A stretch of DNA of 45,319 nt from Streptobacillus felis. Its GTDB lineage: Bacteria; Fusobacteriota; Fusobacteriia; Fusobacteriales; Leptotrichiaceae. Positions 4,510 to 45,319 of the stretch are shown in pieces. The stretch lies in NCBI RefSeq assembly GCF_001559775.1, contig NZ_LOHX01000304.1:1-45319 (forward strand), read 5' to 3'. How positions within the stretch are numbered: position 1 is the first letter of the stretch; every line of letters starts with the position of its first letter. Under the pieces are notes generated by a model. That model was not told where the DNA came from. It searched no databases and saw only the letters and a program-made list of their open reading frames with translations. Made by a program: the position numbers and the translations under genes.

Positions 4510-4836
4510 TTGGTATCCCAGTTAATCGCAAGATTTATCTTGAGGAAAGTCCAAACTTCATAGAGCAATGGTGGCAGTTAACGACTGCTGGGAGTAATCC
4601 TAAGGAAAGTGCAACAGAAAGTAAACCGCCTATAAGGTAAGGGTGAAAGGGTGAGGTAAGAACTCACCAGAGATATAGGAGACTATATTTGCTTGTAAAC
4701 CCCACCAGAAGCAAGAATGAAATAAAAGATTATGGGGCTGCTCGTCCTTCTTTTGGTTATTCGCTCGAGTTTGTATGTAAATACAAGCCTAGAAAAATGA
4801 TTAACAAATACAGAATTTGGCTTATAGGGGTGCCAA
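4510..4836 (+). ncRNA. rnpB: RNase P RNA, class A
   Basis: The catalytic RNA that trims the 5' leader of pre-tRNAs, about 327 nt. The universal core is easy to see: GAGGAAAGTCC at 4542-4552, ACAGAAA...AAACCGCC at 4614-4630, the GGGTGAAAGGGTGAGG segment near 4640-4656, and ACAGAATTTGGCTTATAGG at 4810-4828. The ends are set by helix P1: TTGGTATCCC (4510-4519) pairs with GGGGTGCCAA (4827-4836), all ten pairs forming if two G-U wobbles are allowed. It has its own promoter and lies between terminators, as expected for a free-standing RNA gene. Confidence 0.95.
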
Positions 4837-4867
4837 TTTTTACCAATATAAAATAAAAAAAATATAT

Positions 4868-4913
4868 GTACCACAAACTTTTACTTTTGTTAAAAGTTTA
4901 TAGGTACTTTTTT
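4868..4913 (+). terminator. Rho-independent terminator downstream of rnpB
   Basis: A two-part stem: GTACC (4868-4872) with GGTAC (4903-4907) outside, AAACTTTTA (4875-4883) with TAAAAGTTT (4891-4899) inside, then six T. It lies about 30 nt past the P1 helix and would end the RNA. It closely resembles the hairpin at the IS end at 45090-45143. Confidence 0.85.
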
Positions 4914-4946
4914 AATATAAGGAAATAATATAACTATCTTAATTAA

Positions 4947-4975
4947 TTGACAAAAAGTTTAAGAAAGGTTATACT
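4947..4975 (+). promoter_or_regulatory. Near-consensus sigma-70 promoter of the hemW operon
   Basis: TTGACA (4947-4952), a 17-bp spacer and TATACT (4970-4975), the best promoter in the window. The start would be near 4982, giving a leader of about 60 nt before hemW. It probably drives the 12-gene run that ends at 17596. Confidence 0.85.
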
Positions 4976-5001
4976 AGTATAGTAAATACTAGATAAATTG
5001 T

Positions 5002-5013
5002 TGTTTTAAAACA
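5002..5013 (+). promoter_or_regulatory. Perfect 12-bp palindrome in the hemW leader
   Basis: TGTTTTAAAACA lies about 20 bp after the predicted transcription start, a place where a repressor could bind. In DNA this AT-rich such palindromes also arise by chance; no second copy was noticed near the other promoters. Confidence 0.25.
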
Positions 5014-5042
5014 TATGTATTTAATAAAAAAATAGGAGTATT

Positions 5043-6125
5043 ATGAAGAATATAACAGGAATATATTTACACATACCTTTTTGTAATAAAAGATGTCACT
5101 ATTGTGATTTTCATGTATTTGTAAATATGAATGATAAAATAGAAAAATATGTTGATTATTTAATTAAGGAAATAAATCTTTATCCTAAATTTAAATATGA
5201 TACTATATATTTTGGTGGAGGAACTCCTTCACTTTTAAATGAGTTTCAAATTAAAAGAATATTAGATAGTTTAGATAAAACTGGTGATGTAGAAATTACA
5301 CTAGAATTAAATCCTAGTGATATGGATATAAAAAGATTAAGAAAAATTAGAGAAGCTGGAATCAACAGATTAAGTATAGGAGTACAAAGTTTTAATGATG
5401 AAATGCTTAAGTTTATGAATAGAGATCATAGTTCAGATAAAGCAATAGAGACATATAATAATGCAAGAAGTGTTGGATTTGATAATATTTCTTTAGACTT
5501 AATATTTTCTGTCCCAGGTCAGGATATGCCTATGCTTGAAAATGATTTAGTAAAATTTTTAGAACTTTCTCCAGAACATCTTTCTATTTATTCTTTAATA
5601 TGGGAAGAAGGTACTAATTTTACAAGGAGGTTAGAGAAAGGTGAATTAAGAGCTGTAGATGAAGATTTAGAAGCAGATATGTTTTTAAAAATTCAGGAAA
5701 AATTAAATGAAAATAATTATGAACATTATGAGATTTCTTCTTTTTGTAAAAAAGGAAGAGAAAGTAAACATAATATTAAATATTGGGATAATACAGAATA
5801 TGTAGGAGTTGGAGTTAATGCCACTAGCTTCTATGACGGTAAAAGATTTGCAAAAGTAAAATCTTTATCTAAGTATTATAAGCTAATAGATCAAAATATT
5901 ATACCTATAGAAGAAAAAACTATAGAAATAGTAGATGAAGTTGAACTTGAAAACTTAAAGTACATACTTGGTTTAAGAATGCTAATAAAGGGTGTAGAGT
6001 ACACATATAATGAAAAAATTGAAAAATTAATAAAAAGAGGGTTAATAGAAAAATTTGAAAATAGAATTAGACTTACTACAGAGGGTATGCTTTTATCTAA
6101 TGAAGTATTTGTTGAATTTGTATAA
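5043..6125 (+). CDS. hemW: Radical SAM protein HemW (heme chaperone family)
   Basis: A 360-residue cytoplasmic radical SAM protein. The [4Fe-4S] motif CxxxCxxC is present as Cys14, Cys18 and Cys21 (CNKRCHYC), followed by the SAM-binding GGGTP at 58-62, an ELNP motif near residue 93, and RLSIGVQSF. The extra cysteine found right after the cluster in HemN oxidases is Phe here (CDF), which fits HemW, a heme-trafficking chaperone, rather than coproporphyrinogen dehydrogenase. No heme-synthesis genes lie in the window. AGGAG is correctly placed before the ATG. First gene of the large operon; the DMT transporter follows after 9 nt. Confidence 0.9.
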   Translation: MKNITGIYLHIPFCNKRCHYCDFHVFVNMNDKIEKYVDYLIKEINLYPKFKYDTIYFGGGTPSLLNEFQIKRILDSLDKTGDVEITLELNPSDMDIKRLRKIREAGINRLSIGVQSFNDEMLKFMNRDHSSDKAIETYNNARSVGFDNISLDLIFSVPGQDMPMLENDLVKFLELSPEHLSIYSLIWEEGTNFTRRLEKGELRAVDEDLEADMFLKIQEKLNENNYEHYEISSFCKKGRESKHNIKYWDNTEYVGVGVNATSFYDGKRFAKVKSLSKYYKLIDQNIIPIEEKTIEIVDEVELENLKYILGLRMLIKGVEYTYNEKIEKLIKRGLIEKFENRIRLTTEGMLLSNEVFVEFV

Positions 6126-8727: not shown

Positions 8728-10441
8728 AAATTATTTATTTGATTTTTTTAAATTTACTATAAAAGCAAAAAAAGAATATGTTCTAGGAATAATTGCTCTT
8801 CTATTAGGTATGATATTTGAAGTTTCAGCAATAAAGTTAATTGCTAAGGCTTTTGATGAAAATAATAATAAATTAGAATTAAATAAAGCTTTTAATTTCG
8901 CTATAGGTATAGCAATAGTTTATATAATTTTTAAAATATTAGAAGCTATTTTACTTGTTTACAGAAAGAAAATGTTACAAATTGCAGCGAATATAGTCTA
9001 TACTAATGTTCAAATTTTAGTATATGATCATGTTCAAAATCTACCTATTAAATATTTTGATGATATGCCTGCAGGATCTGTTTTATCAAAAATAACATCT
9101 GATGTTAGATCTATTAAACATTTCTTTGCAGAAACACTTTTATCTACAGTAGTTGTATTGGCACAACTAGTAATAATTTATACTGTAATGCTATATATCA
9201 ATTGGAAGTTATCATTAATTTTATTAATATACCTTCCTATTATAGTTATTATACAAAAATATAATAAAAATCTTACATATGATTATGTAACTAATATGAG
9301 AAAAGATAATTCAAAATGTAATGGTATTGCAAATGAAATGATACAAAATTTAGAAATAGTTGCAGCATTTAATAACGAAAATGCTTTATTAGAGGATTGG
9401 GAAAAACCAGCAAAAAGTAGATATAGAAATGGTAAGTTTGTTACTTTATTAGAAGTATTCATAATGCATAATGCTTTTGATTTTTTAACAAGACTTATGC
9501 AACTTACAATAATATTTTACTTCATATATTCAACAACATATAATCTAAATTTAATTACTGCTGGAGATACTTTGGTATTTATTTTCTATATCTCTAATAT
9601 AGTAAATGGACTTACAAATTTAACTGCTAATTTATCTCTTTATTCTAAGGCAAGAGGATCTGCTAAAAACATTTCTGAGTTATTAGAATTAAATGTTGAA
9701 TCAAAAAAAGGATTGATAATTCCAGATGATATTTATGGGGATATTTCATTTGAAGACGTATGTTTTGCATATGAAGATGAAAAATATGTTTTAAAAGATA
9801 TAAATATAGATATAAAAGAAAACCAAACAGTTGCATTTGTTGGTCATACTGGTAGTGGGAAATCAACTATAATGAATCTCTTAGTTAAATTCTATGAAAA
9901 TCAAAAAGGTAAAATAAAAGTTTCTGGTATAGATATCAAAGATATAGATACTTATACTCTAAGGGATAATATTGCTATAGTTTTACAAGATTCCTTCTTG
10001 TTTGAAGGTACTATAGCTGAAAATATTTCAAGTGATATGGAAGTTTCTAGAAAATGTTTAGAAATGATAGGTGCAAAATACCTAATAGATGAAAGAGGAC
10101 TAGATGGTAAAGTTTTACAAGATGGAAGTAATTTCTCTACTGGAGAAAAACAATTAATATCTTTTGCAAGAGCTTTAGCTAAAGAACCTAAAATACTTAT
10201 ACTAGATGAGGCAACTGCAAATGTTGATAGTAAAACTGAACAAATTATACAACATGGTATAGAAGTTCTTAAGAAAAATAGGACAACATTAATAATTGCA
10301 CATAGATTATCAACTATAAGAAATGCTGATAATATAATAATATTATATAAGGGTGAAATAGTAGAAAGTGGAATACATAATGATTTAATCAAATTAAACG
10401 GTCTTTATGCTAAAATGCTTGAATTAAATAACTCAAAATAG
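8717..10441 (+). CDS. ABC exporter half-transporter, canonical-site subunit
   Basis: A 574-residue partner of the preceding gene with the same membrane-plus-ATPase layout. Walker A is GHTGSGKST (376-384), Walker B is normal (LDE, Glu498), and the switch His is His529. Here the signature motif is the degenerate one: FSTGE (473-477) in place of LSGGQ. Combined with the Asp-for-Glu change in its partner, both defects fall in the same composite nucleotide site, leaving one competent site (this Walker B with the partner's LSGGQ), as in known heterodimeric exporters. GGAGG is 6 nt before the ATG; the gene overlaps its partner by 11 bp, favouring equal synthesis. Confidence 0.92.
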   Translation: MKNKNYLFDFFKFTIKAKKEYVLGIIALLLGMIFEVSAIKLIAKAFDENNNKLELNKAFNFAIGIAIVYIIFKILEAILLVYRKKMLQIAANIVYTNVQILVYDHVQNLPIKYFDDMPAGSVLSKITSDVRSIKHFFAETLLSTVVVLAQLVIIYTVMLYINWKLSLILLIYLPIIVIIQKYNKNLTYDYVTNMRKDNSKCNGIANEMIQNLEIVAAFNNENALLEDWEKPAKSRYRNGKFVTLLEVFIMHNAFDFLTRLMQLTIIFYFIYSTTYNLNLITAGDTLVFIFYISNIVNGLTNLTANLSLYSKARGSAKNISELLELNVESKKGLIIPDDIYGDISFEDVCFAYEDEKYVLKDINIDIKENQTVAFVGHTGSGKSTIMNLLVKFYENQKGKIKVSGIDIKDIDTYTLRDNIAIVLQDSFLFEGTIAENISSDMEVSRKCLEMIGAKYLIDERGLDGKVLQDGSNFSTGEKQLISFARALAKEPKILILDEATANVDSKTEQIIQHGIEVLKKNRTTLIIAHRLSTIRNADNIIILYKGEIVESGIHNDLIKLNGLYAKMLELNNSK

Positions 10442-45079: not shown

Positions 45080-45089
45080 AAGCCAGAAT

Positions 45090-45143
45090 ATGTACCAAAA
45101 AACTGGACACAGAAATGTGAAAAAGTTTGGAGGTACATTTTTT
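45090..45143 (+). terminator. Terminator-like hairpin at the IS left end, overlapping the transposase ribosome-binding site
   Basis: ATGTACC (45090-45096) pairs with GGTACAT (45132-45138), AAACT (45100-45104) with AGTTT (45124-45128), and CACA (45108-45111) with TGTG (45116-45119) around a GAAA tetraloop; a run of T follows. The transposase ribosome-binding site GGAGG (45129-45133) lies partly in the 3' arm. In readthrough RNA from der the hairpin could stop transcription and hide the ribosome-binding site. Confidence 0.6.
45091..45109 (+). repeat. Probable left inverted repeat of the IS
   Basis: TGTACCAAAAAACTGGACA has the TGT..C...AAA..TGGACA form common in the IS150 group of IS3. The boundary is inferred from the 5' TG; the matching right end is not visible. 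Confidence 0.5.
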
Positions 45144-45319
45144 ATGGGAAGAAAAGGTAAATTTACATTTGAAGAAAAACTTAAAATGGTTAAAAATATT
45201 GAAGAAGGAATTCCAATTTCAGTTGTAGCAAAAGAATATAATATTGCTACAGGGACTCTAAGTATTATTGCTTCAAAATATAGATTTCATGGAGAAAAAG
45301 GTCTTAAAGAAGTAGGTAA
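45144..45319 (+). CDS. IS3-family transposase OrfA, N-terminal part
   Basis: The first 58 codons of an open frame that runs off the window. It starts MGRKGKFTFEEKLKMV and contains a helix-turn-helix (ISVVAKEYNIATGTLSIIASKY) followed by FHGEKGLK, the usual arrangement of IS150-type OrfA, which binds the IS ends and is joined to OrfB by -1 frameshifting. GGAGG lies 10 nt before the ATG, within the end hairpin. No stop or frameshift is seen in the visible part. Confidence 0.75.
   Translation, partial: MGRKGKFTFEEKLKMVKNIEEGIPISVVAKEYNIATGTLSIIASKYRFHGEKGLKEVG

Follow-up and report, generated by a model that had tools for sequence, protein, structure and literature searches.

Left-end hairpins of an IS3-type element behind genes of Leptotrichiaceae, and a candidate relic of one as the rnpB terminator of Streptobacillus felis

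Background

Transcription terminators are replaced rapidly in evolution, and where they come from can seldom be traced. Terminators located upstream of transposase genes, at the 5' ends of insertion sequences (IS) with the IS3 family among those named, are thought to block expression in transcribed regions, and the exaptation of 5' and/or 3' IS terminators after decay of the element has already been proposed (Naville & Gautheret 2010, PMC2965389). In the accessible text of that study the worked case is one of 3' terminators that became attenuators upstream of genes; the hairpins described here are by contrast left-end (5') hairpins that would serve as 3' terminators behind genes, are found family-wide and have kept their pairing through two-sided changes. 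Tn10 and IS200 reportedly carry 5' structures directed against external promoters or translation, by which the transposase is protected at the 5' end of the element itself. The transposase gene of the present IS would be self-protected at the same place, the anatomy of its left end being that of an attenuator that may guard the element from outside transcription; Tn10 and IS200 belong to other transposase families.

The mobile repeat SPRITE of Streptococcus pneumoniae resembles a Rho-independent terminator and is enriched near the 3' ends of genes, and its co-option as a terminator has been suggested (PMC3049150). SPRITE has a longer stem and, in the accessible text, is not traced to an IS end, whereas for the hairpins described here the parent IS is known and intermediates are available. 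General statements have been made that IS insertions may create terminators (PMC9208149) and that MITEs may act as terminators (PMC10969869); unlike the present work, neither source in its accessible parts traces a family of solo IS left ends. Neisserial DUS pairs act as terminators, i.e. a repeat with another primary role forms the hairpins (PMC3049150, PMC2267715). The solo IS ends described here resemble them in being repeats of other primary role that form terminator-like hairpins. Neisserial DUS are not known to be transposon-derived. In a search of open-access literature, a body of text short of most subscription journals, the abstracts and passages of the matches listed included no report of a host gene whose 3' terminator is an IS left end. 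Exaptation of IS terminators is a known idea, of which left ends as 3' host terminators would be a new variant. The material below allows a donor left end to be compared side by side with recent copies, with a half-decayed intermediate and with worn relics, which makes it possible to measure how a selfish element turns into a part of the host and whether selection maintains pairing as the sequence changes.

The rnpB locus and the IS left end

The stretch of DNA analyzed (the window) is an entire contig (C304) of 45319 bases from the draft genome of S. felis (G000; 1.6 Mb, 349 contigs). The following features are referred to:

4510-4840, plus strand: rnpB, bacterial RNase P RNA class A (RF00010, 277.4 bits, E 1.2e-89)
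4866-4914, plus strand: putative rnpB terminator hairpin and T-run, candidate relic of an IS left end (orientation uncertain; minus-strand match at 4858-4909)
4868-4872, plus strand: outer arm GTACC of the rnpB hairpin (fold; partner 4903-4907)
4903-4907, plus strand: outer arm GGTAC of the rnpB hairpin (fold; abuts T6 at 4908-4913)
4875-4899, plus strand: inner stem-loop of the rnpB hairpin, AAACTTTTA...TAAAAGTTT (fold)
4947-4975, plus strand: candidate sigma-70-type promoter-like site TTGACA-17-TATACT (11/12 consensus match only)
5043-6125, plus strand: hemW-like gene (name from sequence reading)
45085-45143, plus strand: left end of an IS3-type element, with terminal inverted repeat AGAATATGTACC..., hairpin and T-run (model R1, 72.9 bits)
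45129-45133, plus strand: transposase ribosome-binding site GGAGG, on the 3' side of the hairpin (sequence, fold)
45144-45319, plus strand: transposase OrfA, truncated by the contig end (PF01527 HTH_Tnp_1, E 8.3e-6 for the 58 aa present)

RNase P is the only RNA to reach Rfam gathering scores in the window, and rnpB lies between a Nif3-like gene and the hemW-like gene (names from sequence reading). The stem of the rnpB hairpin begins 28 nt past the last base matched by RF00010; its inner stem begins with AAACT (4875-4879) paired to AGTTT (4895-4899), and the predicted fold has a free energy of -11.9 kcal/mol (z -3.1). A stable hairpin with T6 directly after it, 3' of a gene, has the anatomy of an intrinsic terminator and would be expected to terminate the rnpB transcript. 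A simple consensus terminator scan (at least 3 G-C pairs in the stem, loop of 3-8 nt) did not list it. The promoter-like site 3' of the hairpin is, from its motif, likely the hemW promoter.

The IS boundary at 45085 was set by comparison with a full-length IS of genome G015, and the element adjoins the 3' side of der (name from sequence reading). Its hairpin has outer arms GTACC (45092-45096) and GGTAC (45132-45136) and inner arms AAACT (45100-45104) and AGTTT (45124-45128), and is followed by A, T6 (45138-45143) and the transposase ATG at 45144; it folds at -16.2 kcal/mol (z -3.9). The truncated OrfA is 95% identical to a complete OrfA on contig C290, which matches PF01527 HTH_Tnp_1 with E 1.2e-20. 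Scanned alone, OrfA scored 45.9 bits with NF033516 (IS3 transposase; cut-off 160) and 46.8 bits with NF047595 (IS66 accessory; cut-off 74); with its PF01527-type OrfA, the element is one we take to be IS150-like. G000 has three IS copies, two of them truncated at contig ends, and no right end of the element was seen in this genome. The related IS of G015, whose OrfA is 46% identical to that of G000, is complete and has AAGAACATGT termini on both sides. Two identical 1.65 kb copies are present in G015 (L060 and L073); the sequence to the right of one copy is found, reverse-complemented, to the left of the other, the arrangement expected if an inversion had taken place between them.

In the IS left ends the left inverted repeat pairs with sequence over or beside the ribosome-binding site, and a T-run and the ATG follow. 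Hairpin, T-run and ATG stand in this order at the diverged left end in G010 (-22.1 kcal/mol, z -5.4, GGAGG present) and at that of G015 (-13.9 kcal/mol, z -2.2, a weak fold, without GGAGG), and a second IS type, CTGCACCC...GGTGCAG, is organized in this way as well. To judge from the left ends compared, this arrangement seems to be an ancient component of the IS. The left inverted repeat pairs with a copy of it placed over the transposase ribosome-binding site, which gives a hairpin and a T-run directly ahead of the ATG; within the IS, to go by this anatomy and the published precedent, the hairpin probably blocks transcription from outside and hides the ribosome-binding site.

The initial annotation had also considered that the IS might have captured a host terminator. 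Nothing but the similarity itself speaks for this, and the similar layout in the diverged IS of G015 and G010 speaks against it, as does the finding of related hairpins in 16 of 27 genera when the rnpB hairpin was seen in one species. Capture is therefore very improbable and was rejected on the layout common to diverged IS.

Significance of the resemblance

The rnpB terminator and the IS end had initially been described as sharing arms and a T-run, and both sequences indeed carry GTACC/GGTAC, AAACT/AGTTT and a T-run at the positions listed above; the change of GGAGG in the IS end to ATAGG in the rnpB hairpin was likewise read correctly. Shared spacing had been claimed as well, and here the two are similar and not identical, the rnpB and IS hairpins measuring 40 and 45 nt, with spacers of 2 and 3 nt on the 5' side and 3 and 3 on the 3' side. 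The IS core AAACTGGACA (GGACA) and GGAGG are missing from the rnpB hairpin, which has AAACTTTTAC and ATAGG instead, and it is thus not an intact IS end. The word ATATGTACCA occurs exactly twice in the window, and as a short word is not significant alone (6 sites with at most one mismatch, 4.2 expected). The IS-end/rnpB pair was absent from the repeat families listed in a general repeat search of the window.

A shuffled-sequence test, posed beforehand as a means of refutation, favored the claim of a likeness beyond chance, although less sharply when both strands were allowed than on one strand. The same-strand score of the rnpB hairpin to the IS end was 19.8, against a mean of 8.4 (sd 1.6, maximum 18.1) for 20000 pair-preserving shuffles, none of which reached it, and 4 of 102600 randomized terminators (random pairs on real terminator templates) matched it. 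With 14 terminator-like hairpins in the window, the same-strand chance for the window is ~5e-4. Both-strand shuffles were run because the rnpB hairpin is a palindrome: the best-of-both-strands score with flanks was 22.1, reached by 6 of 20000 shuffles, for a window chance of ~4e-3. The reverse strand agrees with the IS end slightly more closely (alignment score 22.1, vs 19.8 for the forward strand), and either strand of the hairpin could be the original one.

The comparison was widened to a 399 kb sample (the window, 174 kb more of G000 and 180 kb of the congener G001) with 178 terminator-like hairpins, its upper ranks enriched since C101, C287, C290, C308 and C313 were sampled for their pattern hits. 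Ranked by same-strand score to the IS end, the rnpB hairpin was seventh of 178, right under the IS copies and clear relics: three IS copies scored 54, C101:6237 39, G001:209793 29, C101:14974 26.8, rnpB 19.8 and C287:41642 18.9, and the remaining 170 averaged 8.5 (sd 2.2). By a sequence-only profile it was also seventh, at 8.6 bits, and the next two scored 6.1 and 6.0. In the both-strand test two other short hairpins on C101 (L133) reached 21.6; these, at 9361 (minus strand) and 10664 (plus strand), are of a short type AACTGTACAC...GTGTACAGTT followed by T6.

Twelve hairpins, rnpB not among them, went into a covariance model (R1): the G000 and G015 IS ends and ten pattern hits picked by eye. 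In the window R1 gave 72.9 bits for the IS end, 29.1 (minus strand) and 28.1 (plus strand) for the rnpB hairpin, and 18.4 for the best place outside these two loci. Searched over all of G000, the rnpB matches had E values of 0.006 and 0.010, and a chance match inside a coding region of G000 scored 25.0 bits; the R1 score of the rnpB hairpin is just above noise. In the 399 kb sample R1 placed rnpB right under the IS ends and clear relics, a plain GTACC-armed terminator on C313 scored 24.0 bits, and the two L133 hairpins were unlisted.

An AT-rich genome may reuse similar terminators, and the rnpB terminator could be one of these ordinary hairpins, with GTACC/GGTAC and AAACT/AGTTT in it by coincidence. 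Such chance or convergence gains from the existence of plain GTACC-armed terminators (C313:10466, G001:1615200 and several sister-family genomes), from the two L133 hairpins that score nearly as high when both strands are allowed, and from the odds, which at ~3e-4 per hairpin on both strands and several hundred terminators per genome (a rough figure) make one match not very unlikely. It is opposed by the one-strand nulls (0/20000 and 4/102600), by the R1 ranking in the 399 kb sample, from which the L133 hairpins are missing, and by hairpins elsewhere that have the same traits with clearer IS sequence; the earlier comparison, moreover, had spanned the terminators of one window only. On the strength of the two-strand shuffles, the rate of hits outside the family (below) and the 24.0 bits of the C313 terminator, coincidence is considered a possible but less likely explanation, and the rnpB terminator probably descends from an IS end by one route or another, a mini-element included.

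Solo IS-end hairpins across the family

A search for further copies, as the initial annotation had proposed, found relics behind genes in this genome and in the family. The pattern GTACC-GGTAC-T5 was found in 24 of 40 genomes, often with an IS interior. An order-wide run of R1 (96 genomes, stricter filters, some places counted twice, once per strand) gave, at E <=0.02, 92 matches in 27 of 33 genomes of the family (Leptotrichiaceae) and 15 matches in 10 of 63 genomes of the same order outside it. Four of these 15 matches, equal in score, came from G030; the one inspected proved to be a genuine IS, with 93% identity to the IS of G010 across 306 aa.

Context was read for 64 places listed from 13 genomes, namely 12 family members and G036, a genome from outside the family to which the window belongs. 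Hits of 27 bits or more numbered 58, with the 3 IS copies and the rnpB hairpin counted in; 46 of them follow a same-strand open frame of 80 codons or more at a distance of up to 100 nt, and 12 do not. Similarity to transposase was found behind the hairpin, searched up to 1.5 kb (less than 1 kb at five places), in 5 of the 58: the 3 IS copies, C101:6237 and G013:1863365, where 30 transposase-like residues run out of the hairpin. Two further transposase matches fall within the hairpin sequence. The genes in front of the hairpins, as recognized from their protein ends, presumably include glmM, atpC, trxB, spoVG and those for aspartate kinase, transketolase and an NRAMP transporter. Fourteen loci with related hairpins gave no Rfam match at E 0.01; IS-end hairpins could pass for conserved regulatory RNAs, and caution is in order.

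Solo ends of the second IS type (CTGCACCC...GGTGCAG or near) stand behind open frames at G036 C5:227277 and C4:126181 and at G001 C1:488986, and second-type hairpins also lie behind open frames in G010.

An IS inserted shortly after the end of a gene and pointing the same way could place its hairpin so as to terminate the transcript of that gene too. On balance we lean towards the view that IS left ends have been a continuing source of terminators in Leptotrichiaceae, their hairpins being repeatedly left behind genes, losing the transposase, evolving by compensatory change and, in one species, replacing the terminator of rnpB, an essential RNA gene; in this account we infer that the hairpins terminate transcription, that selection acts on them and that the events came in this order.

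Surroundings of rnpB in relatives

No hairpin of the rnpB type was found behind rnpB in any of 21 other family genomes checked (three congeners and 18 more; two family genomes without an rnpB match and nine found later lie outside the 21). In the 160 bases 3' of rnpB in these genomes the best score to the IS end was 16.1 on either strand, compared with 19.8 and 22.1 here. The three congeners, in which the transposase had no match, are the related species without the IS that the initial annotation had wished to see compared; behind rnpB they have different DNA and no such hairpin. Because it is missing in 21 of 21, the rnpB hairpin looks like a lineage-specific gain. An ancestral rnpB terminator was considered and rejected, since the flanks of rnpB differ in all 21.

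Other open frames lie 3' of rnpB in the three congeners, in place of the hemW-like gene found here across the gap at 4841-5042 of the window, and no hemW motif was found in the stretch examined behind their rnpB. In G007, G009 and G016 hemW is also 3' of rnpB, with a far shorter gap.

The proposal that an IS-end fragment was kept as a terminator is thus supported by the above-chance likeness, by absence of the hairpin from congeners and 18 further family genomes, and by the clearer cases elsewhere. No transposase remains were found within 1.5 kb of the rnpB hairpin by tblastn with the IS proteins of G000, G015 and G010. A route that overlaps with descent from an IS end is that a mini-element, two inverted repeats with little between them, was moved to rnpB by the transposase. 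The 3' arm GGTACAT is a 7-mer also found in the right inverted repeat of the IS of G015, deletion between copies would yield such an element, and the two long inverted repeats are present together in two copies (G000 C287:46820 and G010:515784). At rnpB, however, no clear target duplication was seen by eye and the outer AGAAC/GTTCT parts are absent, so that the hairpin does not qualify as a MITE, and its T-run sits beyond the expected end of the element; this route is regarded as rather unlikely.

The two mini-elements, AGAACATGTACC...GGTACATGTTCT or near, span G000 C287:46820-46873 (L138) and G010 C1:515784-515837 (L194); they have no T-run and look as if an IS had collapsed between the hairpin arm and the right end. 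A mismatch hit to the right-repeat pattern at C253:13792 was not used.

Intermediates, decay and paired changes

An intact IS left end lies at C101:6237, 7 nt behind an OmpA-like gene, with a broken OrfB relic downstream of it (against the OrfB of the IS in G015, 44% identity across 81 aa); this copy is half-decayed. At C101:14974, 7 nt behind a YadA-like gene, the outer parts are kept and the inner stem is different and longer. In G019 and G010 the interior is IS-like and the outer arms are altered on both sides, e.g. ATGGTCT/AGATCAT, and in G019 also ATACACC/GGTGTAT.

Outer-arm pairs were counted in 44 first-type hairpins of at least 27 bits among the 64 places read, after dropping 9 of the second type, 3 IS copies, two rnpB entries, 1 truncated where its contig stops and 5 of lower score; alignment A2 was kept out of the count because its diverged arms are misaligned. 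Of the 308 pairs, in a count that leans towards structure because R1 rewards pairing, 259 were unchanged, 33 had two-sided changes, 7 had one-sided changes and 9 were broken; without the wrongly registered G022:1810005 two-sided changes were 31 of 301. It may be that the IS body decays while selection retains the hairpin, whose sequence drifts as the pairing stays.

With descent from an IS end as the preferred reading, the rnpB terminator would most likely be an advanced relic, in which the ribosome-binding site is gone, the inner stem is longer and the outer stem abuts the T-run. GGTAC also abuts the T-run at G005:1384515, in G014 and at G022:1810005, and lengthened inner stems are also found at C101:14974 and in G009.

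Behind the NRAMP-type gene the picture is mixed: of 13 orthologues 4 are close, and an IS-type hairpin follows 2 of these 4, where the remaining 2 have a different hairpin at the same place; no IS-type hairpin was recognized in the 9 distant ones. These differing hairpins speak against long retention and suggest that such hairpins are replaced fairly easily. The NRAMP-type gene (L228-L231; G005, G045, G013 and G042) is 93% identical between two genera, with differing terminators, and copies are otherwise ~60% identical within the same genus; this pattern of identity suggests that the gene was horizontally transferred.
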